Source of the DNA: Shimia marina
GTDB taxonomy: Bacteria > Pseudomonadota > Alphaproteobacteria > Rhodobacterales > Rhodobacteraceae
Reading direction: 5' to 3'
Length of the DNA: 64,000 nucleotides
Assembly: GCF_001458175.1 (NCBI RefSeq)
Contig: NZ_CYPW01000032.1
Location: 150,826-214,825, forward strand
The position numbers were made by a program, and so were the translations under genes. The first letter of the stretch is position 1; each line of letters opens with the position of its first letter. The notes under the pieces are model-generated. The model did no database searches. It was not told the origin of the DNA and saw only the letters and a program-made list of their open reading frames with translations. This document shows, piece by piece, positions 18,065 through 50,012 of this stretch.

Positions 18065-20689
18065 TTATTCGGCGGCTGTGCGTGCTAGTTTGGTGTTTAA
18101 CAACGCGGCCAGCTCAGGCTTACAGGAGCCGCAGTTTGTGCCCGCGGCAAGCGCTGTACCAATTTCTTCAACAGTTACGAGGCTTTGGGCGTCAATCGCG
18201 TTGAGAATGGTATTCACGCCGACATTGAAACACGCGCAAACCGTTGCTCCGGGATCTGGCTGATTTGCGCCGGCTCGTCCCGCCAAGATGCCTTCCCCCC
18301 GCGAGTTCAGAAGCGAGGCCGCAAAGCTGCGGGACAAGGACACAGGGCGTGTGTCGGTGTAAAGCGCGCCAAGCAGTTTGTCGCCTTGATGGAGTGCAAT
18401 CCGGGCTTTGCTCTGATTGGTGTCGATAACACTTGAAGCAAGGGCGTCCGGCGCTTCAAAAACGCCACGTGCAAAACTTTCCCAGCAGTCCGGCATCTCG
18501 TCGTGGGCTATTTCATACTGCCATCCATGTGAGGTGCGGGATTTGGCCCAATAGGCTGTTTTGGGTGCGATTTCTTGTGCGCTGACCACAAAGCCGTACC
18601 ATTTTGGCAGGAAAGGCCGAATGGCCACATAAGAGGATTTGCTGTCAGGTTGTCCTGATACCGGGTCAAACACGGGATGTACCACGTCTGACACGCAGCC
18701 CTCAGACGCCGTTTGCATGGTCCAGTGGATGGGAGCAAAGGGCGCGCCGCGCGCGACGCGATCTGTGACCAGTACGCGCATAACAGCCCGGCCGTAGTGG
18801 TTTTCCAAAACCGCAAGCTCTGCAGGACGTAGGCCAAGTTGCAGCGCGTCCTCGGGGTGTATTTCGACAAATGGCTCGCCATAGTGTTGATTAAGTCTGG
18901 CCGCCCGACCGGTCCGCGTCGTGGTATGCCACTGGTCACGGATACGTCCGGTGTTGAGCCGGAAGGTGGTATTCGCTTCTGGCGTTTTATGGTCTGGTTG
19001 GCGAACTGCGATCATATTGGCGCGGCGACTGGGGGTGAAAAAGCCACCCTCAGCAAAGAACCGCGCATTGGCGGTGTTTTCTGCCGGATAAGGCCAGCGG
19101 GTTGGAGATAGTGCGTCATAGTCATCTGGGGAAATCTGAGCAAAGCCGGAGATGTCAAAATCGACGCCCAGCTGCGCGGCTTTGCCTGAGAGCTCCGCGT
19201 ACTCCTTGAAGATGTCTGCAGGACTGTCAAAAGCAAATCCATCCTCGAAGCCAAGACGTTTGGCCACATCGCAGATAATCTGCCAGTCATGGCGGGATTG
19301 CCCGGCGGGTGGCAGAAAGCCGCGCTGGCGACTGATGGTGCGGTCCGAATTGGTCACTGTGCCGGTTTTTTCCCCCCATCCCGTCGCAGGTAACACGACG
19401 TCGGCCAGTTGCGCCGTCTCTGTGGTGTCAAACATATCGGACACAACGACAAAATCGCAGCTGGCAATCGCCGCGCGCACCTCTGATGCGTTTGGCATGC
19501 TGACGGCCGGGTTGGTACACATCACCCAAAGTGCTTTGATTTTACCGCCCTTTACGGCCTTGAAAAGATCGCCAGCTTTGAGGCCCTGAGAGGTCACTAT
19601 GGTGGGGGAGGCCCAGAAATCCTGAACCAGCGCGCGGTGGCTGGGCTCAGCAATCTCCAAATGGTTGGCGAGCATGTTGGCAAGCCCGCCGACTTCTCGT
19701 CCGCCCATGGCATTGGGCTGTCCTGTCACAGAGAGCGGCCCCATGCCCTCTTTACCAATGCGACCGCTGGCAAGGTGACAGTTGATGATTGCGTTGACCT
19801 TGTCTGTGCCATGATCTGACTGGTTCACCCCCTGACTGAACACGGTGACGGTTTTTTCGGTTGTGGCCCACCACGACACAAAGGTCGAAAGGTCTTTGTG
19901 TGATAGACCGGTGACCTGAACATCCGTGCCGCTTGCCGCATCTAACGCGGCATCAAAGCCCGCGACATGCGCGCTGACGTATGTGCTGTCGATGACACCT
20001 AATTCATGCAGTTGACACAGGAGGTGGTTGAACAATGCGATATCCGTGCCGGGGCGCAGCGCAAGGTGCAGGTCTGCAATGTCACAGGTAGCGGTGCGGC
20101 GCGGATCTACAACAACCACTTTCATCGAAGGACGCGCGGCTTTTGCCGCTGCGAGCCTTTGATAGAGCACCGGATGGCACCACGCCAAGTTAGAGCCTGT
20201 CAGCACCACCAGATCTGCGGCTTCCAGATCCTCATAGGTGCCGGGCACGGTGTCTGTGCCAAAGGCCCGCTTGTGGCCCGCGACTGTAGAGGCCATGCAC
20301 AGGCGCGAATTTGTGTCGATATTCGCGGTGCCGATGTAGCCTTTGATCAGCTTATTGGCGACATAGTAGTCTTCTGTCAGCAATTGGCCGGAAACGTAAA
20401 AGGCCACCGAGTCCGGGCCATAAGTATCAATGGCATGTTGAAAGCCTTCTGCCACGACATCAAGAGCCTCATCCCATGCGGCAGGTCGTTGTCCTATCTT
20501 GGGAGCCAACAAGCGTCCTTCGGTGGAGACGGTTTCGCCAAGAGCAGAGCCTTTTGAGCACAAACGCCCAAAGTTTGCCGGATGATCCGGGTCACCGCTG
20601 ATCTCTACACTGCCATCGGTTTGAAGCGCGGCGCGCACGCCACATCCGGTGCCACAATATGGGCAAGTGGTGCAGGTGACGGTGCTCAT
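18065..20689 (-). CDS. nasA: Assimilatory nitrate reductase catalytic subunit
   Basis: An 874-residue molybdopterin oxidoreductase that reduces nitrate to nitrite in the cytoplasm. The [4Fe-4S] site uses Cys9, Cys12, Cys16 and Cys44 (CPYCGTGC ... RLCSKG). The bis-MGD core follows, with the segment GRIGKEGMGPLSVTGQPNAMGGREVG typical of NasA seen in part around GQPNAMGGREVG. A molydopterin-binding domain lies near residues 580-700. The C-terminus has a BFD-like [2Fe-2S] domain with CACFNVG and NCGSCKPEL, as in the Klebsiella and Rhodobacter enzymes. No Tat signal is present, as expected for the assimilatory type. It is the last gene of the operon and overlaps nirD by 4 bases. Confidence 0.96.
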   Translation of the reverse strand: MSTVTCTTCPYCGTGCGVRAALQTDGSVEISGDPDHPANFGRLCSKGSALGETVSTEGRLLAPKIGQRPAAWDEALDVVAEGFQHAIDTYGPDSVAFYVSGQLLTEDYYVANKLIKGYIGTANIDTNSRLCMASTVAGHKRAFGTDTVPGTYEDLEAADLVVLTGSNLAWCHPVLYQRLAAAKAARPSMKVVVVDPRRTATCDIADLHLALRPGTDIALFNHLLCQLHELGVIDSTYVSAHVAGFDAALDAASGTDVQVTGLSHKDLSTFVSWWATTEKTVTVFSQGVNQSDHGTDKVNAIINCHLASGRIGKEGMGPLSVTGQPNAMGGREVGGLANMLANHLEIAEPSHRALVQDFWASPTIVTSQGLKAGDLFKAVKGGKIKALWVMCTNPAVSMPNASEVRAAIASCDFVVVSDMFDTTETAQLADVVLPATGWGEKTGTVTNSDRTISRQRGFLPPAGQSRHDWQIICDVAKRLGFEDGFAFDSPADIFKEYAELSGKAAQLGVDFDISGFAQISPDDYDALSPTRWPYPAENTANARFFAEGGFFTPSRRANMIAVRQPDHKTPEANTTFRLNTGRIRDQWHTTTRTGRAARLNQHYGEPFVEIHPEDALQLGLRPAELAVLENHYGRAVMRVLVTDRVARGAPFAPIHWTMQTASEGCVSDVVHPVFDPVSGQPDSKSSYVAIRPFLPKWYGFVVSAQEIAPKTAYWAKSRTSHGWQYEIAHDEMPDCWESFARGVFEAPDALASSVIDTNQSKARIALHQGDKLLGALYTDTRPVSLSRSFAASLLNSRGEGILAGRAGANQPDPGATVCACFNVGVNTILNAIDAQSLVTVEEIGTALAAGTNCGSCKPELAALLNTKLARTAAE

Positions 20690-21021
20690 TCTGCTGCCAA
20701 AGCTGTCATGATGTTTGTGGCGTCGAGGAGCACGCGCCCGTCCACGACCTGTGTCGCAAAGGTTGCGATTTGGCCTTCATCGGCGCCCTGTGCTGCTCCG
20801 GTCTCCAGATCAAACACCCAATTGTGCAATGGACATGTGACGCTTTTGCCGTGAACGATGCCCTCGCTGAGCGGGCCTCCCTTGTGCGGGCAGCGGTCTG
20901 AGGTGGCGAAGACTTCGTCTTCCGTGGTGCGAAACACTGCGACGCAGCCCATGGAAGATTTTACAATCCGCGCGCCGCGCAGGGGAATGTCGGTGATGTC
21001 ACAAATGTCGATCCAGTTCAT
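20686..21021 (-). CDS. nirD: Nitrite reductase (NADH) small subunit, Rieske type
   Basis: A 111-residue Rieske-fold protein, the small subunit of the cytoplasmic assimilatory nitrite reductase. The cluster-ligand segments CPHKGGPLSEG and CPLHNWVFDLETG hold both Cys-x-His pairs, so it should bind a [2Fe-2S] centre (E. coli NirD has lost these ligands). It overlaps nirB upstream and nasA downstream by four bases each, which indicates tight translational coupling. Confidence 0.94.
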   Translation of the reverse strand: MNWIDICDITDIPLRGARIVKSSMGCVAVFRTTEDEVFATSDRCPHKGGPLSEGIVHGKSVTCPLHNWVFDLETGAAQGADEGQIATFATQVVDGRVLLDATNIMTALAAE

Positions 21022-23462
21022 TCTGCTGCCTCCAGCGTCAGGTTGGCCACCGGTTGATAGGTTTCCGCTTTCTGCGTGGCATGCTCTGCCCAGGGATCCG
21101 TGCGGTAGATGGATTGAGAAATTTCGAAACGCTCTGCCAAGGCTTTGCGATTTGGGAGATCATCGACAATCTGTTCTTTGACCCAGTCCAATCCAACCTT
21201 GGCGACCCATTTGAAAATGCGATCCAGATATTTTGCGTTTTCACGATAGATCTGCGTCATCGCTGAGATGACCTCCATGGCCTCCTCTTCGGTGGCCACT
21301 TTGCACAGCAGTTCGGTCTCTTTCACTTCCATGCCGGCCGCGCCGGCGATGGAGATTTCATAGCCTGAATCCACGCAGATCACGCCGATATCTTTGCAGG
21401 TCGCCTCCGCACAATTGCGTGGGCAACCAGACACGCCGAGCTTGAGCTTGTGTGGCGTCCAAGAGCCCCAGAGGTGTTTTTCAAGCTTGATGCCCAGACC
21501 GGTGCTGTCTTGTGTGCCAAAGCGGCAATGATCTGTGCCCACACAGGTTTTGACCGTGCGCAACCCCTTAGAATAGGCGTGTCCAGAGACGAGCCCAGCC
21601 TGATTCAAGTCAAACCAGATTGCAGGCAAATCTTCTTTCTTAACGCCAAGCAGGTCGATACGCTGCCCGCCTGTGACCTTCACAGTGGGCACATCGTATT
21701 TGTCGGCGGCATTGGCAATCGCCCGCAGTTCATCCGGTGTTGTGATGCCGCCCCACATGCGTGGCACAACGGAATATGTCCCGTCTTTCTGAATATTGGC
21801 GTGGTTGCGTTCATTAACAAAACGGCTTTGCGGATCATCTGCGTATTCCAGCGGCCAATCTGCCAGAAGATAGTAGTTGATGGCCGGGCGACAGACATGG
21901 CAGCCGTTAGGCGTGCTCCAACCCAGTTCCTGCCAAACAGCGGGCTGAGATTTCAGCTCGCGTGATTTGATCAGGCGTCGCACATCCTCATGAGTGAGGT
22001 CGGTGCATCCGCATACGGATTTGGCGGCGGGCATGACAAAATCATCGCCCAGAGTGACGGCCAGAACCTGTTCCACCAATCCGGTGCAGGTGCCACAAGA
22101 CCCGGAGGCCTTTGTGGTGGCTTTCACGTCTTCCAATGTGGTCGCGCCATTGCCAATGGCCTCCACGATCTGACCTTTGCAAACGCCGTTACAGCCGCAG
22201 ATTTCTGCGTCAGCCGGTAAGGCTGCAACGGCCGCCATAGGGTCCACGGGGTCTCCCCCCTGGTAGGCAGGTCCAAAGATCAAAGTGTCACGCATTTCAG
22301 AGATGTCTTCCCGCTCTTTGATCAAGCCAAAGAACCAGTTGCCATCTGCGGTGTCGCCATACATCACGGCACCGATAATGCGGTCGTTCTCGAGCACCAA
22401 ACGCTTGTAGACGCCGCGCGCCGGATCGCGATAGACGATGTCTTCGCGGCCTTCGCCTTCGGCAAAATCGCCTGCTGAAAAGAGATCACACCCGGTCACC
22501 TTCAGTTTGGTGGCCACGTCTTTATTCACAAAGGCCGCCTCTTCCCCAAGCAGGGTTTTGGCAAGCACTTTGGCCTGATCAAAGATTGGCGCCACCAGAC
22601 CAAAGATATCGCCGTTGTGCTCAACACATTCCCCAAGCGAGAGAATATCCTCGTCAGAGGTGATCATCTGATCATCCACATGGATGCCACGCCCTGTTGC
22701 GAGACCTGCGTCAGAGGCCAGTGCAACAGAGGGGCGGATGCCCACAGCCATCACCAAGAGATCACAGGGCAATTCGGTGCCATCGTCCAAAAGCAGCGCT
22801 TTGACTTTGCCGTTCTCTCCAAGAATTTCCTTGGAGTTGGCGGAGCATTTGACGGTAATGCCTTTGTCCACCAACGCCTTGCGCAGCAAGTAGCCTGCGG
22901 CCTCATCAAGTTGACGCTCCATCAGGTGGCCCATGATATGCACCACGGTCACATCTACACCCCGCAGGGCAAGACCCGCGGCGGCTTCAAGGCCCAGCAG
23001 ACCGCCACCAATCACCACAGCCTTGGCATCAGGCTTATCGCCCAAAGCAATCATGGTGTTGGTGTCTTCCAAATCGCGGTAAGCAATCACGCCCTCCAAA
23101 TCATGTCCGGGGAGTGGGATGATAAATGGGTTTGAACCTGTGGCGATGACCAGCTTGTCATACGACAGCATATCGCCGGTGTCGGAGGTGACAGTCTTGG
23201 CTGTACGGTCAATGTTCACGACCTTTTCACCAAAGCGGCAGGTCACGCTGTTGTCTTCATACCATTCGGCAGTATGGGTGACGATGTCTTCAAAGCTCTT
23301 GTCCCCTGATAGGACAGGAGAAAGCATAATGCGGTTATACGTTCCGCGCGGTTCTGCGTTGAACAAGGTGACGTCATAGGCGTCTGGCGCTTGTTCAAAC
23401 AGGTGCTCAAGAGCGCGGCCAGCGGCCATGCCTGCACCAATTATGATAAGTTTCTGGGTCAT
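21018..23462 (-). CDS. nirB: Nitrite reductase (NADH) large subunit
   Basis: An 814-residue siroheme enzyme that reduces nitrite to ammonium with NADH. An N-terminal pyridine-nucleotide/FAD domain (LIIIGAGMAAGRALE; second dinucleotide site AVVIGGGLLGLEAAAGLA) is followed by BFD-like [2Fe-2S] modules (CGCNGVCKGQI ... SCGTCTGLV, then CGCTDLTHEDV ... GCHVCRPA). The ferredoxin-like and siroheme domains follow, with cluster ligands TCVGTDHCRFG and GCPRNCAEATCKD. A GTG six bases upstream of the chosen ATG could also serve as start; it overlaps the stop of the ATPase gene. Confidence 0.96.
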   Translation of the reverse strand: MTQKLIIIGAGMAAGRALEHLFEQAPDAYDVTLFNAEPRGTYNRIMLSPVLSGDKSFEDIVTHTAEWYEDNSVTCRFGEKVVNIDRTAKTVTSDTGDMLSYDKLVIATGSNPFIIPLPGHDLEGVIAYRDLEDTNTMIALGDKPDAKAVVIGGGLLGLEAAAGLALRGVDVTVVHIMGHLMERQLDEAAGYLLRKALVDKGITVKCSANSKEILGENGKVKALLLDDGTELPCDLLVMAVGIRPSVALASDAGLATGRGIHVDDQMITSDEDILSLGECVEHNGDIFGLVAPIFDQAKVLAKTLLGEEAAFVNKDVATKLKVTGCDLFSAGDFAEGEGREDIVYRDPARGVYKRLVLENDRIIGAVMYGDTADGNWFFGLIKEREDISEMRDTLIFGPAYQGGDPVDPMAAVAALPADAEICGCNGVCKGQIVEAIGNGATTLEDVKATTKASGSCGTCTGLVEQVLAVTLGDDFVMPAAKSVCGCTDLTHEDVRRLIKSRELKSQPAVWQELGWSTPNGCHVCRPAINYYLLADWPLEYADDPQSRFVNERNHANIQKDGTYSVVPRMWGGITTPDELRAIANAADKYDVPTVKVTGGQRIDLLGVKKEDLPAIWFDLNQAGLVSGHAYSKGLRTVKTCVGTDHCRFGTQDSTGLGIKLEKHLWGSWTPHKLKLGVSGCPRNCAEATCKDIGVICVDSGYEISIAGAAGMEVKETELLCKVATEEEAMEVISAMTQIYRENAKYLDRIFKWVAKVGLDWVKEQIVDDLPNRKALAERFEISQSIYRTDPWAEHATQKAETYQPVANLTLEAAE

Positions 23463-23464
23463 GT

Positions 23465-25144
23465 TCACTCCGCAGCGATGGCTTTGGCGGCTTTGGGTTT
23501 TGGCTTGGCGCCGTGTTCATATTCCTCAAGGAAATCAAGCACGTCCTGGCGATACCGGTAATAATCTGGATGCTCGAGCAAGGCCTGACGGGTGCGTGGG
23601 CGGGGCAGATCCACATCGACGATCTTACCGATGGTGGCCTGTGGGCCGTTGGTCATCATCACCACACGATCCGCCAGCAGGATGGCTTCGTCCACATCAT
23701 GGGTCACGCAGATGGCGGTCACCTTGGTGCGGTCCCAGACTTCCATCAAAACCTCTTGCAGCTCCCAGCGGGTGAGGCTGTCAAGCATCCCGAAAGGCTC
23801 ATCCAAAAGCAGCAGTTTGGGGGAGAGAGCAAAGGCACGGGCGATGCCGACACGTTGCTTCATGCCATTGGACATGGAATGCGCCGGGCGGTCCATGGCA
23901 TCCGCGAGGCCAACACGCTCCAGATAGTATTCCACCACGTCCTGACGTTCGCCCTGGCTGGCTTTGGGATAGACTTTATCCACACCAATCGCGACGTTCT
24001 CTTTGGCGGAGAGCCAAGGGAAGAGGTTGGGGGATTGGAACACCACAGCGCGTTCTGGATCTGCGCCTTCGACATGGCGACCGTCCAGACGGATGCCGCC
24101 TTTGGAAATGGCGTTCAGACCCGCAGCCATGGTCAGAACGGTGGACTTGCCACAGCCTGAGTGGCCAATCAGCGAAATAAACTCACCGCGTTGAATTTTA
24201 AGGTCAAAATCTTCCACCACGGTTAGGGGGCCTTTGGGGGTCGGATAGATTTTATGCAGCTTGGAGAAGTCGAGGAAGTTGTGATCGATCATACCCTTCT
24301 GCGCATCTTTGACCGCCGCAGGCACTCCGTGGATCGGGGTCACGTCTGGCAAGACTTTGGTGCCTTCCGCTTTTGCCGCGATGCCCACGTCCATCAGATA
24401 TTTGGTGACCTTGGCCCGCAGTTTTTTGAAGCCGTCGTGATGGTTCATTTCCATCCGGTCGCGGCGGCGTGGAATGTCCACTTTGAACTCTTCCCCCAAA
24501 GTGCCGTCGGGGTTGAGGGCAATGATGCGGTCGGCGAGGATGATAGCCTCGTCTACATCGTTGGTGATCAGCACACAGGTCTTTCTTTCTGCGGACCAGA
24601 TGGCTTCAATCTCATCGGCCAGATTGGCACGTGTGAGGGCGTCCAACGCGCTAAGCGGTTCATCCAGAAGTAAAACTTCAGGATTCATGGCCAGCGCACG
24701 CGCAACATTCACACGTTGTCGCATACCTCCAGAGAGTTCGGCCGGGCGGCGGCCGGTGGCGTGAGAGAGACCAACCATTTTGATATAGTGGTCCACCTTC
24801 TCTTCTTTTTCGGCCTTGGGCATGTTGGGAAACACACTGTCGAGGGCAAGGCGCACGTTGCCGTTCACTGTCAGCCAGGGCATCAAAGAGTAGCTTTGAA
24901 AGATCACGCCACGCTCTGGGCCGGGGCCTGAGATCGGTTGGCCCTTGAAAGTCACGCTGCCAGCGGAGGGTGTTTCAAGGCCCGCCATCAGGTTGATCAG
25001 TGTGGTTTTCCCGGTGCCGGAGAAGCCAAGCAGCACGAGGAACTCGCCCTCCTCAACTTCGAGATTGATGTTTTTCAGAACGTCGGTTTTGGCGGTGCCT
25101 TCGCCGAAGCTCTTGGAGACATTGTCAAATTTCAGAACACTCAT
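23465..25144 (-). CDS. Nitrate ABC transporter, fused double ATPase (NrtC/NrtD-like)
   Basis: About 559 residues with two nitrate/taurine-type ATPase domains joined by a linker of some 60 residues. Domain 1 has Walker A GFSGTGKTT and a canonical signature LSGGMRQR, but its switch region reads ITNDVDEA, with Asn in place of His. Domain 2 has GHSGCGKST and switch VTHDVDEA, but the signature is MSNGMKQR. One composite site is therefore canonical and the other degenerate. In cyanobacteria NrtC and NrtD are separate and NrtC carries a binding-protein-like tail; here there is none, and the tail is a short Lys/Ala stretch. ATG at 25144 was preferred; a GTG at 25153 overlapping the nrtB stop is possible. 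Confidence 0.9.
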   Translation of the reverse strand: MSVLKFDNVSKSFGEGTAKTDVLKNINLEVEEGEFLVLLGFSGTGKTTLINLMAGLETPSAGSVTFKGQPISGPGPERGVIFQSYSLMPWLTVNGNVRLALDSVFPNMPKAEKEEKVDHYIKMVGLSHATGRRPAELSGGMRQRVNVARALAMNPEVLLLDEPLSALDALTRANLADEIEAIWSAERKTCVLITNDVDEAIILADRIIALNPDGTLGEEFKVDIPRRRDRMEMNHHDGFKKLRAKVTKYLMDVGIAAKAEGTKVLPDVTPIHGVPAAVKDAQKGMIDHNFLDFSKLHKIYPTPKGPLTVVEDFDLKIQRGEFISLIGHSGCGKSTVLTMAAGLNAISKGGIRLDGRHVEGADPERAVVFQSPNLFPWLSAKENVAIGVDKVYPKASQGERQDVVEYYLERVGLADAMDRPAHSMSNGMKQRVGIARAFALSPKLLLLDEPFGMLDSLTRWELQEVLMEVWDRTKVTAICVTHDVDEAILLADRVVMMTNGPQATIGKIVDVDLPRPRTRQALLEHPDYYRYRQDVLDFLEEYEHGAKPKPKAAKAIAAE

Positions 25145-25149
25145 GGGGA

Positions 25150-26232
25150 TCACCGGTTTGCGCTAAAGGTGAAGAGCGATTGGATCGCATACATCAGGCG
25201 GTCGAGCAGGAAGCCGATGATGCCGATGGTGAAGACCGCGACCATGATCTTGGCGAGTGAGCTGGAGGAGCCGTTTTGGAACTCATCCCAGACAAATTTG
25301 CCGAGACCCGGGTTCTGGGCGAGCATCTCTGCGGCGATCAGGACCATCCAGCCAACACCGAGCGACAGGCGCAGACCAGTGAAGATCAGCGGCAGAGCGG
25401 ACGGCAGCACCAGCTTGGTGATCTTGGTCCATGTGTTCATCTTCAGAACTTTGGAAACATTCACCAGATCCCTGTCGATTGAGGCCACGCCGAGTGAGGT
25501 GTTGATCAGAGTTGGCCATAGAGAACAAAGGGTTACGGTGATCGCGGAGGTCAGGAAGCTCTTGGAGAACAGACCATCTTCAACGGTGTAGGTGGCGGAG
25601 ACCACCATGGTGACGATGGGGAGCCATGCCAGCGGCGAGACCGGTTTAAAGATCTGGATCAGCGGGTTGATCGCGGCATTGGCATAGGGAGAGAGGCCGG
25701 CCATGATGCCCAGAGGGATCGCGACGATGGCGCCGATCAGGAAGCCAAAGAAGACCGTTTTGATCGAAGTCCAGATCTGATTGTAGTAGCTGGGGCTGCC
25801 TGTGTATTTGATATTTTTGACTTTTTCGGGCTGGCCTTTTTCGATGAACTTCTGGTTGCGGGCTTCTACCCGCTCGTAGAATTTCGCTTCTTTGGCCGCC
25901 TTTGCCTGCGCGTCCTCATGCAGAAGTACAGCTTCGGACCAGACGTCTTTCGGGCCGGGAATGGCGCCGAGTGAGGTTTGTACTTTGGGCGCGAGGTTGG
26001 CCCAGAGCATCAGGAAAACACAGATGGCGAGGAGGGGAACTCCTAAAAGTCGCCATATTTCAGTGGCTTGTGATTTGGGGTTGTCGCCTGCGGCGGCTTT
26101 GAGAATAGGCGTGATGAAGCTGAGGCCGAGAACCTGAAACCAGGCGTCGGCCTTGTTGATGCGGGTGAAGAGGCGCGCGCGACGGGCTTCGCGCTCTTCA
26201 TCTGCCAAGTTTTGGGGGTCGATTGTGGTCAT
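25150..26232 (-). CDS. nrtB: Nitrate ABC transporter permease
   Basis: A 360-residue BPD-type inner-membrane permease of the nitrate/sulfonate/taurine group. The EAA loop region reads NVSKVLKMNTWTKITKLVLP and the preceding helices match NrtB. Compared with the usual length of about 280, it has an N-terminal extension of some 80 residues with an extra helix (LLGVPLLAICVFLMLWANL) and a charged cytoplasmic or periplasmic loop rich in Lys and Glu. The extension is common in proteobacterial homologues. It lies 258 bases after nrtA and almost touches the ATPase gene. Confidence 0.92.
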   Translation of the reverse strand: MTTIDPQNLADEEREARRARLFTRINKADAWFQVLGLSFITPILKAAAGDNPKSQATEIWRLLGVPLLAICVFLMLWANLAPKVQTSLGAIPGPKDVWSEAVLLHEDAQAKAAKEAKFYERVEARNQKFIEKGQPEKVKNIKYTGSPSYYNQIWTSIKTVFFGFLIGAIVAIPLGIMAGLSPYANAAINPLIQIFKPVSPLAWLPIVTMVVSATYTVEDGLFSKSFLTSAITVTLCSLWPTLINTSLGVASIDRDLVNVSKVLKMNTWTKITKLVLPSALPLIFTGLRLSLGVGWMVLIAAEMLAQNPGLGKFVWDEFQNGSSSSLAKIMVAVFTIGIIGFLLDRLMYAIQSLFTFSANR

Positions 26233-26405
26233 GGATCTGTCCGTGGCTTGGGGGCTCTGGGAGCGCTGTTGCGCGTTTGGGAGAAAGGCTAACGGTGAAA
26301 TGGCGCGTCGGTATTGCGTCGGTTTTCCGTCCGTAGGGCGGCGGTGTTTTTTGACGGCCGTGGGTTTCTTAAGGCGGCGGGCGTTGCTGCGATTTTGAAG
26401 ATGGT

Positions 26406-26464
26406 GTGGGAGGGCAGGGACGCTTCTTGCCAGATTGGCAAGCTCGCCCCACCCGCCCTCCCAC
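26406..26464 (-). other. Inter-cistronic stem between nrtA and nrtB
   Basis: A perfect 10-bp stem (GTGGGAGGGC / GCCCTCCCAC, 26406-26415 with 26455-26464) encloses a second small stem (CTTGCC / GGCAAG, 26426-26442). It starts 27 bases beyond the nrtA stop. No clear U-tract follows on the minus strand. The rest of the 258-base nrtA-nrtB gap (26233-26405) shows no further feature. It probably protects or partially ends the nrtA message. Confidence 0.6.
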
Positions 26465-26490
26465 GGGGAGTGTTCAAAATCGGCTGCCGC

Positions 26491-27855
26491 TTAACCCTGT
26501 ACCTCGGTGCCTACGACGCGCTGATCGCCTTTCAGGCCGATGGGCAGGCTTTCCAGATAGGCGTTGGGCGTGCGCCCGTCGTAGGGAATGCCATCAATGA
26601 TGTCTTCCGCCGGTGTGGGCGCTTTGTAGCCATCGCTGTCCCATGGGAAGTCCGCTTCGTTTGCCAGACCTTCGTCCACCAGCAGACGGGCGGCTTCGAG
26701 GTAGATCGCAGGCTTGTAGACCGATTTGGCCACCTCGTCATACCAGCTGTCTGGCTTGGCCTCCGCAATCTGGCCCCAGCGGCGCATCTGAGTCAGATAC
26801 CAGACCGCGTCGGAATAGAAAGGGTAGGTTGCGTTGTAGCGGAAGAACACGTTGAAGTCCGGAACCTCGCGTTTGTCACCCTTTTCATATTCAAATGTGC
26901 CGGTCATGGAGTTGGCGATCACGTCGTAATCCGCGCCGACATATTCTGGCTGGCTTAGAATGCGCACGGCTTCTTCGCGGTTGGCGTTGTCGTTTTCATC
27001 CAGCCACATGGCGGCGCGGATCAGGGCTTTGGTCACGGCCAATGTGGTGTTTGGATATTTCTCGGCAAACTCGGCGTTCAGACCGAAGACTTTCTCCGGG
27101 TTGTTCTTCCAGAGTTCATAGTCGGTGATCACCGGCACGCCGATGCCTTTGAACACGGCCTGTTGGTTCCAAGGCTCGCCTACGCAGTAGCCGTAGATGG
27201 TGCCAGCTTCCATGGTGGCGGGCATCTGTGGCGGAGGCGTCACGGAGAGCAGGACGTCTGCGCCGATCTGACCAGAGATGTTTTCAGGAGAATAGAAGCC
27301 TGGCTCCAGACCACCGGCGGCCAGCCAGTAGCGCAGTTCGTAGTTGTGGGTGGAGACGGGGAAGACCATGCCCATGTTAAACGGCTTGCCTTCCGAGGTG
27401 TATTTCTCAACCACCGGTTTGAGCGACGCGGCGGAGATTGGATGTTGTGGGCGTCCATCCTCCATCAGCGGCACATGCGGTTTCATTTCTTCCCAGATCT
27501 GGTTGGAAACGGTGATGCCATTGCCGTTCAGATCCATGGAGAAAGGCGTGATGATATGGGCCTCGGTGCCGTAGCCGATGGTGGCGGCCAGCGGCTGACC
27601 GGCGAGCATGTGCGCGCCGTCCAGTTGGCCATCAATCACACCGTCCAGCAGGACTTTCCAGTTCGCCTGTGCTTCGAGGGTTACGAAGAGACCTTCGTCA
27701 TCAAAATATCCCTGCTCATAGGCCACGGCCAGTGGCGCCATGTCTGTCAGTTTGATGAAGCCGAAGGTCAGCTCGTCTTTTTCCAGTTCCAATTCTGCCA
27801 TGGCAGGGGTCACGAAGACGGTCGTGGCTGCCAGGATCGAAGCAATGCGTTTCAT
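26491..27855 (-). CDS. nrtA: Nitrate ABC transporter substrate-binding protein
   Basis: A 454-residue NrtA/CmpA-family protein. A signal peptide ([20 protein letters not shown]) is followed by [24 protein letters not shown], the typical start of the mature family. Segments [15 protein letters not shown] and [12 protein letters not shown] are shared with NasS encoded upstream and line the nitrate site. The start was set at the ATG with AGGGA upstream, not at the longer frame that would run through the leader. It is the first structural gene after the ANTAR-type leader, so its expression should depend on NasT antitermination. Confidence 0.94.
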
Positions 27856-27897
27856 ATTGCAGTCCCTGTGTTGTGCCCGGTGGATGGAGGAAGGGCG

Positions 27898-27959
27898 TAA
27901 AAATAAAAAAGCCGCGCGACACGCACCGGAAGGGAGATCCAGCGGGGTCGAGCGGCTTT
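27898..27959 (-). terminator. Leader terminator ahead of nrtA
   Basis: On the minus strand the leader forms AAAGCCGC ... GCGGCTTT (8-bp perfect outer stem, 27952-27959 with 27908-27915; the inner part is less regular), followed by a U-rich run to 27898. It sits 43 bases before the nrtA start, so transcripts would stop before the operon unless antiterminated. Confidence 0.85.
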
Positions 27960-27971
27960 GCTCAGAAGTTT

Positions 27972-28015
27972 CCCCGGTCATTCGGGGTGGGAGGCGTGAA
28001 GCGTCCTTGCTTCAC
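27972..28015 (-). promoter_or_regulatory. ANTAR (NasT) antitermination element: two hexaloop hairpins
   Basis: Read on the minus strand, hairpin 1 is GTGAAGC-AAGGAC-GCTTCAC (28015-27996) and hairpin 2 is CCCCG-AATGAC-CGGGG (27987-27972), eight bases apart. Both loops are six bases with A at position 1 and G at position 4, the known signature recognised by ANTAR-domain proteins. The leader terminator follows 12 bases later. NasT is encoded just upstream in the same direction, so it is the obvious ligand. Confidence 0.88.
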
Positions 28016-28115
28016 CTTGAGGTCATCTTGGAAAATCCGGCGGGAGTCGCTCAAGTAAGATTTGGTGAATCACGCTGCGCCGCCGCGTCATTTTCTGCGA
28101 TTGCATGTTTTTTCA

Positions 28116-29291
28116 TCACTCTGGCTGGGCCGGGTCGAAAATACGCCCATCAAAGAATCGATCTGGGCCCAGAACCAACGTGCCATTGGTGGCTTTATGC
28201 ACTGTGGGCGCATCCAGTGCCCCTTCGCATTTTTCCGAAGCCAGGGGCATCACGGCTCCCAGATTCGCCAGATGGCGGCGGTAGAGATCGCTGCGAAAGA
28301 CCTTGGAGGCGGTTTGAGCAGATTGCACCCGGTCCAGTCCAAAGCGGGCGGCCATGCGGGTGCCTATCCAGGCAGCTTGACTGCGCCAGGGGAAGGTGGC
28401 CGCGCTGTCGAAGAATTCCAGCATCCGGGGCACGGTGGTCAATGTGCCGCGCGCCTGTGTCAGCATTTGTCCGCTGAGCGCGCGTTCCAGAATGTCCGGG
28501 GAGACATCCAGATATTCCGGCCAGCCGAGAATGTCAGAGGCGGTGGAACGTTTGGACGGATCAGACAGCCAGCGCCCGGCTTTCCAGACCGCACGGATCA
28601 GGCGGCCGGTGAGATCATCTTCAGCCTGTGCCCAGTCGCGGCGCACGGCCAGTACTTTTTCCGGGGTGAAGTTCCAGATGGCGGCGCTGGCGACCAGAAG
28701 CTGACCACCGCCCTGTTCCACGGTGATGCTGCCCCATGGCTCGCCAACACAGAAGGCGTCGATTTCATCTGCGGCGATGGCCTCTGCCATGAGGGGGGGC
28801 GGGATAATGCGCATGTCCAGCGTTTCGGGCGTGTTCAGGCCGGAACTGGCCAGCCAATAGTGCAGCAGCTCGGCATGCATGGAGAAGGGAAAGGGCACGC
28901 CCACACGCAGGGTGCGGCCAAGATTGGCCAACGCCTGTCCCGTGGCGGTGGCATCCAGAAAGCCGGGCAGCGGGGCTTTGGCCGCGATTTCATCCGCTAG
29001 GGCGTTGGAAATGCCGATGGCGTTGCCATTCACCGAGAGCACACAAAGCGCATCCAGTTGCGTGGGCACACCGCCCAGTCCCAGCGCCATGGCCACGGGC
29101 ACGGGGGCGAGCATATGGGCGGCTTCGATCTGGCCCAGCACCAGCCGGTCACGCAGGGTGGACCAGCTTGGCGCACTTTGCAGATGCAGGGCGAGGCCCT
29201 CTTCTTCGGCAAAGCCCAACTCATGGGCGATGATCAGCGGGGCGGCATCCACAAGCGGCATAAAGCCAACGGCAAGGGGCAGGGTTCTCAT
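28116..29291 (-). CDS. nasS: NasS nitrate sensor
   Basis: A 391-residue NrtA/CmpA-like protein without a signal peptide (begins MRTLPLAVGFMPLVDAAPLI), so it stays in the cytoplasm. It shares HMLAPVPVAMALGLGG and FCVGEPWGSITVEQGG with the nitrate-binding protein. Cytoplasmic homologues of this type, encoded next to nasT, are NasS. NasS is known to hold NasT inactive until nitrate or nitrite binds. It overlaps nasT by the ATGA arrangement, which suits a stoichiometric complex. The shorter length than NrtA reflects the missing signal and loops. Confidence 0.92.
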   Translation of the reverse strand: MRTLPLAVGFMPLVDAAPLIIAHELGFAEEEGLALHLQSAPSWSTLRDRLVLGQIEAAHMLAPVPVAMALGLGGVPTQLDALCVLSVNGNAIGISNALADEIAAKAPLPGFLDATATGQALANLGRTLRVGVPFPFSMHAELLHYWLASSGLNTPETLDMRIIPPPLMAEAIAADEIDAFCVGEPWGSITVEQGGGQLLVASAAIWNFTPEKVLAVRRDWAQAEDDLTGRLIRAVWKAGRWLSDPSKRSTASDILGWPEYLDVSPDILERALSGQMLTQARGTLTTVPRMLEFFDSAATFPWRSQAAWIGTRMAARFGLDRVQSAQTASKVFRSDLYRRHLANLGAVMPLASEKCEGALDAPTVHKATNGTLVLGPDRFFDGRIFDPAQPE

Positions 29292-29881
29292 GACAGCAGT
29301 TCCGAGGCAGTGACCAGCGCCTGCGCGACATCGGCGATCTTTTTGCCCTGTCCCATGGCGGTTTTGCGGATGAGCGCATAGGCCTCATCCTCTGAGAGGT
29401 TACGGGCGCGCATCAGGATGCCTTTGGCGCGGTCGATGATCTTGCGCTCTTCGAGGGCGCGTTTGGTGGCGGCCAGTTCATTGCGCATGCGGGCGAACAT
29501 GTGAAAGCGGGCGATGGCGGCATCGAGCACGGGTTTGACCCGATCCGGATGCATGCCATCCACCACATAGGCGGAGACACCCGCTTCAATCGCGGCCTTG
29601 GTCAGCCCGTCATCTGAGCGGTCCACAAACATCGCCACCGGGCGCTCCAGTGGGGAGGAGGCCAGTGCCAACGCATCAATGGCGTCACGGCTGGGGTTGG
29701 CGACATCGACCAGCACAAGATCGGGGTTGAGTTCGGCCACAGAGCGGGCGAGGCCTGTGGATTCAGCGAGCACGCGGATATGGTGATCTCCGGTGGCCAC
29801 GAGGCTGTCGATGATGGCATCCGCGCGGGTTTTGTCGGGTTCGACAATGAGGATGGTAAGCTTGGCGGTCACGGCTGACAC
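29288..29881 (-). CDS. nasT: NasT antitermination regulator (receiver-ANTAR)
   Basis: A 197-residue two-domain protein. Residues 8-120 form a response-regulator receiver fold with Asp59 in LVLVDVANPSRD. Residues about 130-192 form the ANTAR RNA-binding domain (RALEERKIIDRAKGILM, then EDEAYALIRKTAMGQGKKI). NasT is controlled by NasS rather than by a kinase. It would bind the paired hexaloop hairpins ahead of nrtA and prevent termination when nitrate is present. The start is a GTG with GGAG upstream. The 145 bases between it and the SDR gene should hold its promoter; no clear element was seen. Confidence 0.95.
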   Translation of the reverse strand: MSAVTAKLTILIVEPDKTRADAIIDSLVATGDHHIRVLAESTGLARSVAELNPDLVLVDVANPSRDAIDALALASSPLERPVAMFVDRSDDGLTKAAIEAGVSAYVVDGMHPDRVKPVLDAAIARFHMFARMRNELAATKRALEERKIIDRAKGILMRARNLSEDEAYALIRKTAMGQGKKIADVAQALVTASELLS

Positions 29882-30026
29882 TGGCTCCGCTGGCGGTGGA
29901 TCGCCTGTTGGTAGCGCTGCAGTGCGGCGCGAGGCCAGAGCGGTAGGGGGGCTGTGTGGGCCTGAGAGGAGGGTATTTGCCTGTATTTTGGGCTGTTAAG
30001 GGTGTTGCGCCTCAAAGATGGGCGGT

Positions 30027-30770
30027 TTAGATGCAGCGTCCGCCATCGACCTCCATCAATGTACCGGTGATCATGGAGGCCTCATCAGAGCAGAGGAAAG
30101 CGGCGGCGTTGCCCATGTCTTCGGGCTGGGAGAAACGGCCGAGCGGGATGGTGGAGAGGAATTTGGCTCGGATTTCTGGCGTGTCTTCACCCATGAAGGA
30201 TTTCAGTAGCGGGGTTTCGCCCGCCACCGGGTTGAGTGCGTTGACGCGGATGCCGTGGGGCGCAAGTTCGACAGCCATGGCTTTGGTGGCGGTGTTCACC
30301 CAGCCTTTGGAGGCGTTGTACCAGTTGAGGTTGGGGCGTGGGGACAGCCCGGCGGTGGAGGAGATGTTGAGGATCGCGCCGGCCGCGCGGGATTTCATAT
30401 GGGGGATGAGCGTCTGGGCGATCAGGTAGATGGATTTGCAGTTCACGGCAAACACCCGGTCAAAATCGCTCTCGGTCACAGTCTCCATCGGGGCAGGCAG
30501 ATGGGTGACGCCGGCGTTGTTTACCAGAATGTCGATCTGCTCCCAAGCGCCAAGTGCTGTGTCGATCATGCTCTGCACGCTGGTGGCATCAGAGACATCC
30601 ACGGTGCAGGGGGTGGCGTTTTCATGCGCGGCGGCTTTGGTGGCGGCGGCCTCGCCGTTGATGTCCGCGACCAGCACTTTTGCGCCCTCAGTGAGGAATT
30701 TGTCAACGATGCCCGCGCCAAAGCCCTGAGCGCCGCCGGTGATGATGGCTGTTTTGTTTGCAAGACGCAT
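30027..30770 (-). CDS. Short-chain dehydrogenase/reductase
   Basis: A 247-residue classical SDR. The cofactor site is GGAQGFGAG, followed by NNAG (NILVNNAGVTH) and the catalytic Ser (ILNISSTAG) and YNASKGW, giving the Ser-Tyr-Lys set. Asp at the end of beta strand 2 (LVADING) suggests NAD(H) preference. It is the last gene of the M20/ABC/ALDH operon, 17 bases after the aldehyde dehydrogenase. An alcohol intermediate oxidised here to an aldehyde, then to an acid by the neighbour, would fit. Substrate unknown. Confidence 0.93.
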   Translation of the reverse strand: MRLANKTAIITGGAQGFGAGIVDKFLTEGAKVLVADINGEAAATKAAAHENATPCTVDVSDATSVQSMIDTALGAWEQIDILVNNAGVTHLPAPMETVTESDFDRVFAVNCKSIYLIAQTLIPHMKSRAAGAILNISSTAGLSPRPNLNWYNASKGWVNTATKAMAVELAPHGIRVNALNPVAGETPLLKSFMGEDTPEIRAKFLSTIPLGRFSQPEDMGNAAAFLCSDEASMITGTLMEVDGGRCI

Positions 30771-30787
30771 GTGTCTGCTCCTTTGGC

Positions 30788-32222
30788 TTAACCGTGCAGC
30801 GCGGCGACGGTTTTGAGTTGGGAGAAGTGGAAGAGGGCTTCAAAGCCCTTTTCGCGGCCGTGGCCGGAGTGGCCGGTGCCGCCGAAGGGCAGCTCGACCC
30901 CGCCGCCTGCGCCGTAGTTGTTGAGGAAGACCTGACCGGCGTTGAGTTGTTTGGCCAGACGCATCTGGCGCGCGCCGTTTTGGGACCAGACCGAGGCGAC
31001 AAGGCCGTATCTGGTGCTGTTGGCGATCTGCAGTGCCTCTTCTTCGCTGTCAAAGGGGATGAGCACCTGCACCGGACCGAAGATTTCCTCCTGCGCGAGG
31101 GGGTGATCGGGGGGGACATCGGCAAAGAGCGTGGGGGGCACGTAGTGGCCGGGGGCGTGGGTGGCGATTTCGCCTTGGGCAGCGATGGTCAGGTCTGCGC
31201 CTTTGGTGAGGAAGTCTGACACGATGTCTTTTTGTCGTGCGGAGATCAGCGGGCCGAGGGTGGCGTCTTCCATGGCAGGGGCGGCGCGCATCGCTTTGTA
31301 GGCGGCGCTCATGCGGGATTTGACCTCTTCATAGACACTGCGCTCCACCAGTATGCGGGAGGAGGCAGAGCAGGTCTGGCCCGCGTTCTGGATGCCAGCG
31401 TTCACAAGGAAGGGCAGGGCGGTGTCCAGATCGGCATCCGCAAAGACCAGTTGCGGGGATTTGCCGCCCAGTTCCAGCGTGACCGGCACGACGTTTTCTG
31501 CGGCGGCGGTTTGCACAAGGCGGCCGGTGTTCACCGAGCCGGTGAAGGATATGTGGTTCACATCCGGGTGGGCGGCGAGCGCGGCCCCGGCCTCGGGCCC
31601 CAGACCGGGCACCACATTGAGCGCGCCATCCGGCAGGCCTGCCTGTTGGGCGAGGTGGGCAAAGGCCAGCGCGGTGAGGCAGGCCTCTTCGGCGGGTTTG
31701 AGCACACAGGCGTTGCCCATGGCCAGCGCGGCCCCGACCGAGCGGCCAATGATCTGCATCGGGTAGTTCCATGGCACGATATGGCCGGTCACGCCGAAAG
31801 GTTCGCGCAGGGTGTAGACGGTGTAGCCCTCCAGATAGGGGATGGTTTCGCCATGCACTTTATCGGCTGCGCCGCCGTAAAACTCCATATAGCGCGCCAG
31901 AGCGGTGACATCATTGCGGGCCTGTGTGAGCGGTTTGCCCACGTCCTGCGCCTCAAGCCGTGCCAGTGTCTCGGCGTGCTCCATCACGAGCTGGCCGATG
32001 CGGGTGAGAATGCGGCCGCGTTCCACTGCGGTGGCGCGGCCCCAGTCGCTGTTGCGCGCTGCCTGCGCGGCGGCCACAGCGGCGTCGATGTCTGCTTTGG
32101 TGCCGCGTGCGATGGTGGCGAGGGGGCTGCCGTCTGAAGGGTTGGTCAGCGCCAGTGTGTCGCCAGACAGGGCTGGCTGCCATGTGCCGCCGATGAGGCA
32201 TTTGGAGGGGTCAAAAAACAGA

Positions 32223-32236
<14 letters not shown>
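30788..32236 (-). CDS. NAD-dependent aldehyde dehydrogenase
   Basis: A 482-residue aldehyde dehydrogenase. The family motifs are in order: VPWNYPMQ, FTGSVNTGRLVQ, the general base in LELGGKSPQL, the nucleophile Cys in NAGQTCSASSR and EIFGPVQVLIPF. It oxidises an aldehyde to the acid in the cytoplasm. It overlaps the end of the ABC ATPase gene by 14 bases, which ties it to the uptake operon. It resembles betaine-aldehyde and gamma-aminobutyraldehyde-type enzymes, but the substrate cannot be fixed from sequence. Confidence 0.94.
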
Positions 32237-33841
<1,605 letters not shown>

Positions 33842-33845
<4 letters not shown>

Positions 33846-34663
33846 GTGCGCACCACGCGGATTTTGGGATCCAGCCAGTCGCGCAACCCGTCGCCTAAGA
33901 GGTTGAGGCCAAGGACAGCGCTGATGATGGCGAGGCCGGGGATCAGTGCGAGGTGAGGCGCGAAGGAGACCATGGTTTGCGCATCTGCGAGCATGCGGCC
34001 CCATGAGGGCGTGGGCGGCTGTGCGCCAAGGCCCACATAGGAGAGGCCAGCCTCTGCCAGAATGCCGAGGGAGAACTGGATGGTGCCCTGCACGATCAGC
34101 AGGTTGGCGACATTGGGCAGGATGTGCTCAACGCTGATCAGGGCGCGGGATTTGCCTGCGACGCGGGCGGCGAGGATGAAATCGCGTTGCCAGAGCGGCA
34201 GCGCGCCGGCGCGGGTGAGGCGGGCAAAGACCGGCACGTTGAAGATGCCGATGGCGAGGATGGCGTTGAGCGCACCGGGGCCGAGGATGGCGGTGATCAG
34301 GATGGCGATCACGAGGCTGGGGAAGGCAAAGATCAGGTCGTTGCCGCGCATGATCAACTCGTCCGCCCAACCGCCTTGGCGCGCGGCGGCCCAGAGGCCA
34401 AGCGGCACGCCAAGGCCCATGCCGATGCCCACCGCCACCAGCGCCACCGCGAGCGAGGTGCGTGCGCCCACCATGATCATCGAAAAGATGTCACGCCCGA
34501 AATGATCGGTGCCAAACCAATGCGTGGCGCTGGGCGTTTGCAGCTTGTTGGGGATGTCCATCGTGGTGATGTCATAAGGCGTCCAGACAAAGCTCAGGAG
34601 CGCGGTGCTGACCACGATCAGGCAGAGCAGACCGCCAATCAGGATATTGCGCGACAGGCTCAT
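33842..34663 (-). CDS. Peptide-type ABC transporter permease (DppC-like, second system)
   Basis: A 273-residue permease with the DppC N-terminal hallmark HWFGTDHFGRDIFSMIMVGAR (positions about 48-68, shown in part here as GTDHFGRDIFSM). The coupling loop reads AARVAGKSRALISVEHILP. Overlaps both neighbours by four bases, so it is translationally coupled to the DppB-like gene before it and the ATPase after it. Confidence 0.93.
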
Positions 34664-35607
34664 GTGCGGGCCCTCAGGCGGGGATCAATCGCGGCGTAGG
34701 CGAGATCAACAAGGAAGGTGACGAGAATCACGAGGAACACCAAGAGCATGACCACGCTTTCCACCACAATGAGGTCACGGGCTGAGATCGACTGAAAGAT
34801 CAGGCGGCCGAGACCGGGCAGGAAGAAGACCTGTTCGATGATGATGGCGCCTGCGAGCAGGAAGGAGAACTGCATGCCGATGATGGTGAGCACCGGGATC
34901 ATGGCGTTGCGCAACCCGTGGCGCAGCAGCGCCTGACGGCGGGAGAGGCCTTTGGCGCGGGCGGTGCGCATGAAATCTTCGCCGAGCACATCCAGAAGGG
35001 CGGAACGCATGACGCGGGCGAGGATGGCGGATTGCGGCAGGGCAAGCGCAATGGCGGGCAGGGTGAGGGAGTGCATGGCGGCCCCAAAGCCTTTGTCCCA
35101 ACCGACAAAGCCCCCCGCAGAGAACCAGCGCAGGTTGATGGCGAAGATCAGGACCAGCATCATGGCAAACCAGAAGTTAGGCACGGCGATGCCAAACTGG
35201 GTGGCGCCCATGACGGCCATGTCGCCCGCTTTGCCGCGGCGGGCGGCGGCGTAGATGCCAGCGGGGAAGGCGATCAGGGTGGAGAGCGTGAGCGCATAGA
35301 GCGCCAGTGGCAGGGAGACCCAGATGCGGTCGCCAATCATCTCTGTCACCGGGGTGCGGTAGGTATAAGAGAGACCAAAATCGCCCTGCAACATGCCACC
35401 CACCCATGTGAGGTAGCGCTCAAACTTGGGCACATCCAGACCCAGCTCTGCGCGTAGGGCCGCGATGGTGTCGGGCTGGGCATTGAGACCCAGCATAAAG
35501 CTCGCCGGATCGCCGGGCACCACCTCGATCACAAAGAAGATCACGAGGGAGGCCACGATCAGGCTGAGCCCTAAAGAGAGCGCGCGTTTGAGGGTGTAGC
35601 GGAGCAT
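34660..35607 (-). CDS. Peptide-type ABC transporter permease (DppB-like, second system)
   Basis: A 315-residue permease starting MLRYTLKRALSLGLSLIVAS, with the DppB landmarks VPGDPASFMLG and the EAA-type loop RTARAKGLSRRQALLRHGLR. It forms the channel with the DppC-like partner. A 77-base gap containing a perfect inverted repeat separates it from the binding-protein gene. Confidence 0.93.
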   Translation of the reverse strand: MLRYTLKRALSLGLSLIVASLVIFFVIEVVPGDPASFMLGLNAQPDTIAALRAELGLDVPKFERYLTWVGGMLQGDFGLSYTYRTPVTEMIGDRIWVSLPLALYALTLSTLIAFPAGIYAAARRGKAGDMAVMGATQFGIAVPNFWFAMMLVLIFAINLRWFSAGGFVGWDKGFGAAMHSLTLPAIALALPQSAILARVMRSALLDVLGEDFMRTARAKGLSRRQALLRHGLRNAMIPVLTIIGMQFSFLLAGAIIIEQVFFLPGLGRLIFQSISARDLIVVESVVMLLVFLVILVTFLVDLAYAAIDPRLRART

Positions 35608-35635
35608 AGGGTGGACAGAAACTTTGTGTGAGTGG

Positions 35636-35676
35636 GCAGAGGCCCCGCCTTGAGCGGAGTCAGAGTGGGCCTCTGC
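35636..35676 (-). other. Inter-cistronic hairpin between peptide-binding protein and permease
   Basis: A perfect 10-bp inverted repeat (GCAGAGGCCC / GGGCCTCTGC) with a 21-base loop starts 8 bases after the binding-protein stop. On the minus strand no U-run follows. This matches the arrangement seen after the TAXI and nitrate binding-protein genes. Confidence 0.6.
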
Positions 35677-35684
35677 GTTTTGGA

Positions 35685-48272: not shown

Positions 48273-50012
<1,740 letters not shown>

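Follow-up and report, generated by a model that had tools for sequence, protein, structure and literature searches.

A nitrate-responsive leader at which NasT works transcription antitermination, in a three-hairpin form, probably lies between nasS and nrtA in the 64,000-nucleotide stretch of Shimia marina DNA analysed here (the window). The leader carries three hairpins with A1-G4 hexaloops, HP1, HP2 and HP3, and a strong intrinsic terminator (Table 1). NasT-controlled antitermination is the best reading on account of the nasT-nasS synteny, the ANTAR domain of NasT, the conserved hexaloops and the conserved overlapping terminator. HP3 would act as the antiterminator, HP1 as the recruitment hairpin and HP2 as a relay or a spacer. 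An ANTAR antitermination leader had already been proposed in the initial annotation of this DNA; the kind of element agrees with the synteny, the ANTAR domain and the conservation, but the pair named there, HP1 and HP2, has to be revised because only HP3 overlaps the terminator.

Table 1. Elements of the leader and genes of the locus, with positions in the window.
Feature	Position	Strand	Remarks
HP1, GTGAAGC-AAGGAC-GCTTCAC	27996..28015	(-)	7 bp, C:G-closed A1-G4 hexaloop; putative recruitment hairpin
HP2, CCCCG-AATGAC-CGGGG	27972..27987	(-)	5 bp, A1-G4 hexaloop, G:C closing pair; putative relay or spacer
HP3, GAGC-AAAGCC-GCTC	27950..27963	(-)	C:G-closed A1-G4 hexaloop; predicted antiterminator
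Intrinsic terminator stem, AAAGCCGC...GCGGCTTT	27908..27959	(-)	excludes HP3 and vice versa
U-tract, TTTTTTATTTTT	27899..27910	(-)	from sequence and a terminator-like scan
nasT	29288..29881	(-)	receiver-like domain and ANTAR; GTG start
nasS	28116..29291	(-)	NrtA-like, probable nitrate sensor; NMT1_2 222.6 bits
nrtA, nitrate-binding protein	26491..27855	(-)	NMT1_2 321.6 bits; first gene 3' of the leader
Probable remaining operon	18065..26232	(-)	same-strand ORFs; names by ORF reading
Permease nrtB	25150-26232	(-)	named by ORF reading
Fused ATPase nrtCD	23465-25153	(-)	named by ORF reading
nirB	21018-23468	(-)	named by ORF reading
nasA	18065-20689	(-)	named by ORF reading

On the minus strand the locus runs nasT, nasS, a 260-base gap holding the leader, nrtA, the permease, the fused ATPase, nirB and nasA, so that nasS adjoins the leader, and not nasT as had been annotated. 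An NrtA-like NasS, in which no signal peptide was seen by eye, thus adjoins a receiver-ANTAR NasT, the arrangement of a NasS/NasT system; the two genes overlap by 4 bases, and nasS stands behind nasT in 102 of 104 loci of the same order. The G+C content is 0.54-0.57 over positions 1-26000 of the window, 0.58 over 26001-28000 and 0.62-0.64 over 28001-36000, with the step near the leader. Elsewhere in the window, positions 49542-49829 of the plus strand match the 5' ureB small RNA (RF02514; 131.2 bits, E 2.3e-34).

The cognate ANTAR protein is encoded at the locus: NasT matches Pfam ANTAR with 76.1 bits and is the sole ANTAR match in its own genome at E 0.01, above the cut-off, and its Response_reg score of 25.6 bits lies below the cut-off of 30.2. 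Its closest counterparts from named genomes belong to Shimia, at 94% identity. NasT was aligned to EutV (6wsh) with the residue list of PMC8934654 and a chain-paper offset of 2 that is our own fit; here and below, statements from the literature refer to the available text of the papers cited. The EutV residues R142, K143, K149, E160, Y164, R168 and M172 are kept in NasT as R146, K147, K153, E164, Y168, R172 and M176, and six of these (R142, K149, E160, Y164, R168 and M172) hold G4 or the loop in EutV. EutV K147 corresponds to R151 of NasT and EutV R177 to a lysine. EutV N173 and R175, which belong to a triple mutant with binding lost (PMC8934654), are glycines in NasT; these four exchanges speak against the proposed reading.

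Both stems of the initial annotation, with loops AAGGAC and AATGAC bearing A1 and G4, were seen on the minus strand of the nasS-nrtA gap, and the terminator with its U-run was present behind them at 27899-27959. The leader had been called complete with these two hairpins, but a third A1-G4 hexaloop hairpin, HP3, follows HP2. HP3 is easily missed because its loop and 3' arm form part of the terminator 5' arm. The gaps between HP1 and HP2 and between HP2 and HP3 are 8 nt each, and HP1 and HP3 are 32 nt apart from stem to stem and about 50 nt from loop start to loop start. In the minimum free energy (MFE) fold, HP1, HP2 and the terminator coexist, neither hairpin overlapping the terminator. The 135-nt leader folds at -52.3 kcal/mol against -37.9 +/- 3.6 kcal/mol for shuffled sequences (z -4.0), below all 200 of 200 shuffles, and the 71-nt stretch containing the terminator at -31.4 against -18.0 +/- 2.6 kcal/mol for its shuffles. 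The MFE fold is the terminator state. The HP3 state lies 9.3 kcal/mol above it in the window leader and, over 90 leaders of the same order, 8.7 +/- 3.7 kcal/mol above; in 85 of these 90 the MFE fold pairs the G4 of HP3 with a base further downstream. Taken singly, hexaloops with A1, G4 and at least 4 pairs are not rare in the 64-kb window (46 on one strand and 50 on the other); it is clustering, position and conservation that carry weight. No Rfam family matched 27840-28140 up to E 1. A CUCA/UGAG helix that encloses HP1 and HP2 in the MFE fold of the window was considered as a candidate anti-antiterminator and rejected as not conserved: a closing helix of this type was present in 18 of the 88 leaders, and in 9-20 of them across 20 sets with shuffled flanks.

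Conservation was followed in the same order, in which 108 of 196 genomes gave a NasT match; with G025, G103, G177 and G159 left out, 104 loci (103 and the window) were considered, and removal of two without a nasS match (L044, L056) gave 102 nasS-linked leaders. HP3 was sought as an A1-G4 hexaloop hairpin 38-60 nt before a run of at least four T, the closing pair not being a criterion, and was found in 90 of the 102 leaders, among which L034 and L119 at least look doubtful. Two of the 90 (L034, L078) lacked an HP1 candidate, and in all 88 that remained HP3 is C:G-closed. For HP1, the hexaloop with the strongest stem within 34-70 nt upstream of HP3 (between loop starts) was taken in every leader, with the loop letters ignored. 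Its loop nevertheless has both A1 and G4 in 77 of 88 leaders and is C:G-closed in 82, against letter shuffles (200 sets) that gave a mean of 58 hairpins, with A1 and G4 in a mean of 3.7 (maximum 9) and a C:G closing pair in a mean of 18.6 (maximum 28) of about 58. Within the search range of 34-70 nt, the spacing between the HP1 and HP3 loops is 42-67 nt, mostly 45-57.

Twelve of the 102 leaders failed the HP3 rule. Five of them were among the 97 sources on which a covariance model was run, with 73 matches in all, and four of the five matched (L032, L109, L114 and L133), L051 being missed. The twelve also include L035, L036, L047, L057, L116, L127 and L129, at least one of which is from Paracoccus; some of these seven carry A1-G4 hexaloop hairpins elsewhere, in a different layout. 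Under a stricter rule demanding terminator overlap, HP3 was found in 47 of 80 named loci, HP1 at 38-68 nt in 45 of these 47 and a middle hairpin at or below -3 kcal/mol in 41 of the 45, with no match in 33 of the 80 (19 of them Paracoccus); the 80 loci partly overlap the other locus set, so these counts are not independent of it.

HP2 is a conserved middle hairpin. It was studied in 77 leaders, 11 of the 88 being dropped for a best HP1 without A1 or G4, and the segment between HP1 and HP3 folds in them at a mean MFE of -8.48 against -5.72 +/- 0.20 kcal/mol for shuffled segments. When the best middle hexaloop was chosen by stem energy alone, it reached -2 kcal/mol in 37 of the 77 leaders. Of these 37 loops, 17 combine A1 with G4 and 24 carry G4, where shuffled segments gave on average 1.2 and 3.9 among about 20 (maxima 4 and 8; 60 sets). 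In 36 hand-picked leaders the HP2 loop has G4 in 34, A2 in 30, A1 in 20 and G1 in 12, a G4 count that is maybe too favourable given how the alignment was chosen, compared with 24 of 37 above. Many relatives have an HP2 in which a TCCC/GGGA stem carries a loop of 7 nt, and unlike stems that retain an A1-G4 loop occur in L080, L083 and L086. Where there is just one middle hairpin, in 74 leaders, the linkers flanking HP2 have medians of 9 and 6 nt.

The 36 leaders, taken from 72 candidates for similar spacing and HP2 type, were aligned with MAFFT without fitting to a structure; because of the hand-picking, the letters of HP1 and HP3 are conserved in this alignment partly by choice. The three-helix structure of 16 pairs leaves 91.3% of its cells paired, against 30-48% when slid by 1-3 columns; the covariation score is 0.432 against a maximum of 0.138 in controls, and 88 cells are changed on both sides against 11-30 in slid versions. 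The number of pairs with both-side changes (6) is in no excess over shuffles (6.2). The 73 model matches, in an alignment biased towards the structure by fitting, are 88.8% paired with a covariation score of 0.422 and show both-side changes in all three helices; the pairs with such changes number 10, against up to 11 in slid versions. The covariation comes mostly from HP1, and HP3, which is nearly invariant, is neutral in this respect. For HP2, one of four pairs shows both-side changes in the unfitted alignment; the fitted alignment has three such pairs, of which two owe this to one cell each. A model built from the unfitted alignment, the window included, scores the window at 61 bits by construction and, with stricter filters applied, finds matches at E 0.05 in 51 of 121 genomes of this order.

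A1-G4 hexaloops are known binding sites of ANTAR proteins, and in the leaders controlled by EutV, NasR and AmiR it is the second of the hexaloop hairpins that overlaps the 5' arm of the terminator (PMC3369931, PMC3369936). The eut linkers are 5-12 nt long, and linkers of 3 or 14 nt cut induction drastically in vivo (PMC3369931, PMC3369936); a linker lengthened by 20 nt abolished antitermination in vitro (PMC8934654). G4 is the base-specific contact, a dimer holds a single hexaloop, and a successive hand-off was proposed (PMC8934654). NasR preferred C:G closing pairs and A1-G4 loops in SELEX (PMC7496416). Compared with this dual-hexaloop class, the present leader has two A1-G4 hairpins in HP1 and HP3, or three with HP2; the closing pair is C:G in HP1 and HP3 and G:C in HP2, and the terminator 5' arm is overlapped by HP3 only, not by HP2. 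The linker is short only if HP2 is counted. Because the gap between HP1 and HP3 exceeds the linker range, the leader is regarded as a variant and not as a plain member of the class, and by the EutV limits this spacing would lie beyond tolerance unless bridged by HP2.

The following course of regulation is proposed on this basis. In the absence of nitrate, NasS would hold NasT, the leader would fold as the terminator, and transcription would end before nrtA. Nitrate or nitrite would lead NasS to free NasT, as suggested by Paracoccus denitrificans, in which nitrate frees NasT from NasS and NasT binds the nasA leader (PMC3795266). The freed NasT may meet HP1 first, move via HP2 and stabilise HP3. 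Once formed, HP3 would deprive the terminator of its 8-bp base and leave the remaining stem separated from the U-tract, and RNA polymerase could then read into nrtA and the genes downstream.

Two readings are considered for the part played by HP2. Perhaps it acts as a relay in the hand-off of NasT from HP1 to HP3. That NasT makes a genuine third contact at HP2, using it as a stepping stone across a gap too long for a two-hairpin leader, is a tentative proposal that we hold at less than even confidence. The retention of G4 with A1 relaxed may favour a relay; counting against three contacts, HP2 of the window is G:C-closed, and the HP2 loop of relatives often has 7 nt or begins with G. These deviations from a C:G-closed hexaloop in the window and many relatives, together with the varying loop size, would suit a hairpin that is a structural spacer only, shortening the HP1-HP3 gap so that NasT uses an ordinary pair and leaves the HP2 loop untouched. 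HP1 and HP3 are indeed the two canonical hairpins, and the range of distances between their loops is also in keeping with a spacer. A spacer needs no loop letters, yet G4 and A2 prevail in the hand-picked leaders, and among the 77 leaders A1-G4 loops are clearly more frequent than in shuffles and occur on unrelated stems too. We consider a pure spacer rather unlikely.

The arrangement of the initial annotation, with HP1 and HP2 as the pair bound by the ANTAR protein and a terminator that stands by itself 3' of them, draws on the two A1-G4 hexaloops of the window and on a linker of 8 nt, within the 5-12 nt of eut (PMC3369931). It is very improbable, since this pair does not overlap the terminator and all three structures coexist in the MFE fold, whereby binding would not prevent termination by the known mechanism, and since HP3 is conserved in relatives. 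More improbable still is that a plain terminator ends the nasTS transcript, that nrtA has a promoter of its own and that the hairpins are non-regulatory. A strong intrinsic terminator is present, and in P. denitrificans nasTS and nasABGHC are separate transcripts (PMC5424462); against this, the hexaloop letters and stems are conserved, and a sigma-70 scan, a weak test, showed no promoter-like site in 27800-28200. The three-hairpin antitermination leader remains the preferred reading.

Outside the order, the same strict rule, a C:G-closed A1-G4 hairpin overlapping a terminator, was applied to 60 loci, taken from other Alphaproteobacteria as well as from other Proteobacteria; 27 matched, some of them doubtfully (L142, L176), and 33 did not. 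Partner hairpins of at least 4 pairs, sought 14-90 nt upstream, lay at 18-27 nt in 14 leaders and at 41-83 nt in 12, with none at 28-40 nt. Three C:G-closed A1-G4 hairpins occur in L140, L151, L154 and L187, the outermost of L140 and L187 having only 3 pairs. The middle segments of ten long-spacing leaders fold at -8.15 against -5.84 +/- 0.62 when shuffled (0 of 200 as low), a mean in which L151 and L154, with their third canonical hairpin, weigh heavily; no convincing middle hairpin was seen in L173, L153 and L184. The short-spacing leaders near nasT in other Proteobacteria, L141, L186, L188, L189, L191 and L192, likewise have a terminator-overlapping C:G-closed A1-G4 hairpin, but its single partner is 18-27 nt off from loop to loop, and for the main leader of each, by rule, no third C:G-closed A1-G4 hairpin was found within 90 nt. 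In 9 of 26 listed outgroup leaders (L139, L140, L141, L143, L161, L186, L191, L192 and L193), raw matches to a sigma-54-like motif (TGGYAY, 4-6 bases, TTGC) precede the antiterminator loop by 59-119 nt.

Among known systems, the eut leaders of Enterococcus faecalis (Ramesh et al. 2012; Walshe et al. 2022) share the A1-G4 hexaloops and a last hairpin that overlaps the terminator, and EutV, like NasT, is an ANTAR protein with G4-holding residues. In contrast, they have two hairpins with a linker of 5-12 nt, where three are present here and HP1 and HP3 are 32 nt apart, and EutV is phosphorylated by EutW, whereas NasT is assumed to be sequestered by NasS. The NasR-nasF leader of Klebsiella oxytoca is also a nitrate-responsive ANTAR antitermination leader, but it has two hairpins and NasR itself senses nitrate. 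The nasA leader of P. denitrificans (PMC3795266, PMC5424462) resembles the present one in being nitrate-responsive, with nasTS directly upstream and hairpins HI and HII; it was published with two hairpins and controls nasA, not nrtA (PMC5424462). Mutation of HII had little effect with nitrate (PMC5424462); the published distances do not settle how HI and HII correspond to HP1 and HP3. In the nasS-nasA gap of P. denitrificans HAMBI_2443 (L234:5360-5440), loops AACGGC (by rule), AATGAT and GACGAT (both by eye) lie 25 and 23 nt apart. Unlike in the window, the middle hairpin is absent from the MFE fold, and the third loop, GACGAT, has G1 and in our reading no terminator overlap; this missing overlap and the small effect of the HII mutation speak against the three-hairpin reading. 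Three hairpins are also predicted in the PPE1-5' RNA of Mycobacterium tuberculosis (PMC8131098), to which the ANTAR protein PdtaR binds; in the available text it is a titrating RNA close to a start codon and no terminator-overlapping leader.

Additional hexaloops have been described elsewhere: the EutX RNA has an extra single hexaloop with G4 (PMC8934654), and Desulfotomaculum acetoxidans has at least 13 ANTAR RNA hits in six transcription units (PMC3369931), which may imply arrays. In a survey of actinobacteria the distance between two stem loops was allowed to be 2-25 nt (PMC8164766), and for the NasT targets of Bradyrhizobium the available text gives a description by hairpin only (PMC6759348). 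A literature search that covered open main texts brought up no description that we recognised of a three-hexaloop ANTAR antiterminator. The kind of leader is already known, and the three-hairpin variant is, within that search, without a recognised published description.

Related leaders were also found before other genes. In two genomes of one other genus, the three-hairpin layout, with HP2 CCCG-AATGAC-CGGG and an overlapping terminator, precedes a siroheme-synthase-like gene, named by ORF reading (L226:2334-2399 and L227:2496-2561). Related leaders stand before siroheme-synthase-like genes in L228, L229 and L230 as well; in all five the overlap of the terminator with the last hairpin was read by eye. 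In the genome of the window itself, a hairpin pair lies just before a nitrilase-like gene (L196:1501-1578, minus strand; G000:C2:55047-55124; E 0.03). By eye, its loops AATGGC (8-bp stem) and AACGGC (7-bp stem) are C:G-closed, with A1 and G4, and 52 nt apart from loop to loop. No terminator was seen in this leader, where NasT might have a second target and act at the level of translation; relatives lend the pair no support, as the nitrilase (E 1e-60) occurs in 2 of 120 family genomes including this one, and the other lacks the pair.

The covariance model indicates a second likely NasT target in relatives, the siroheme-synthase-like gene, which is likely to be a member of the NasT regulon, judging from its leader, and would supply the cofactor of nitrite reductase. 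For NasT leaders of this form, the three-hairpin reading corrects which hairpin should be the target of mutation. In the EutV-RNA structure a single dimer was unable to hold both hexaloops at once, which is where the hand-off proposal comes in (PMC8934654), and a widespread three-hairpin leader whose middle loop is relaxed at A1 but not at G4 offers a natural test between hand-off and simultaneous binding. If HP2 is a true third contact, ANTAR leaders would be modular arrays, in which a G4 kept while A1 is relaxed would mark a transient contact.
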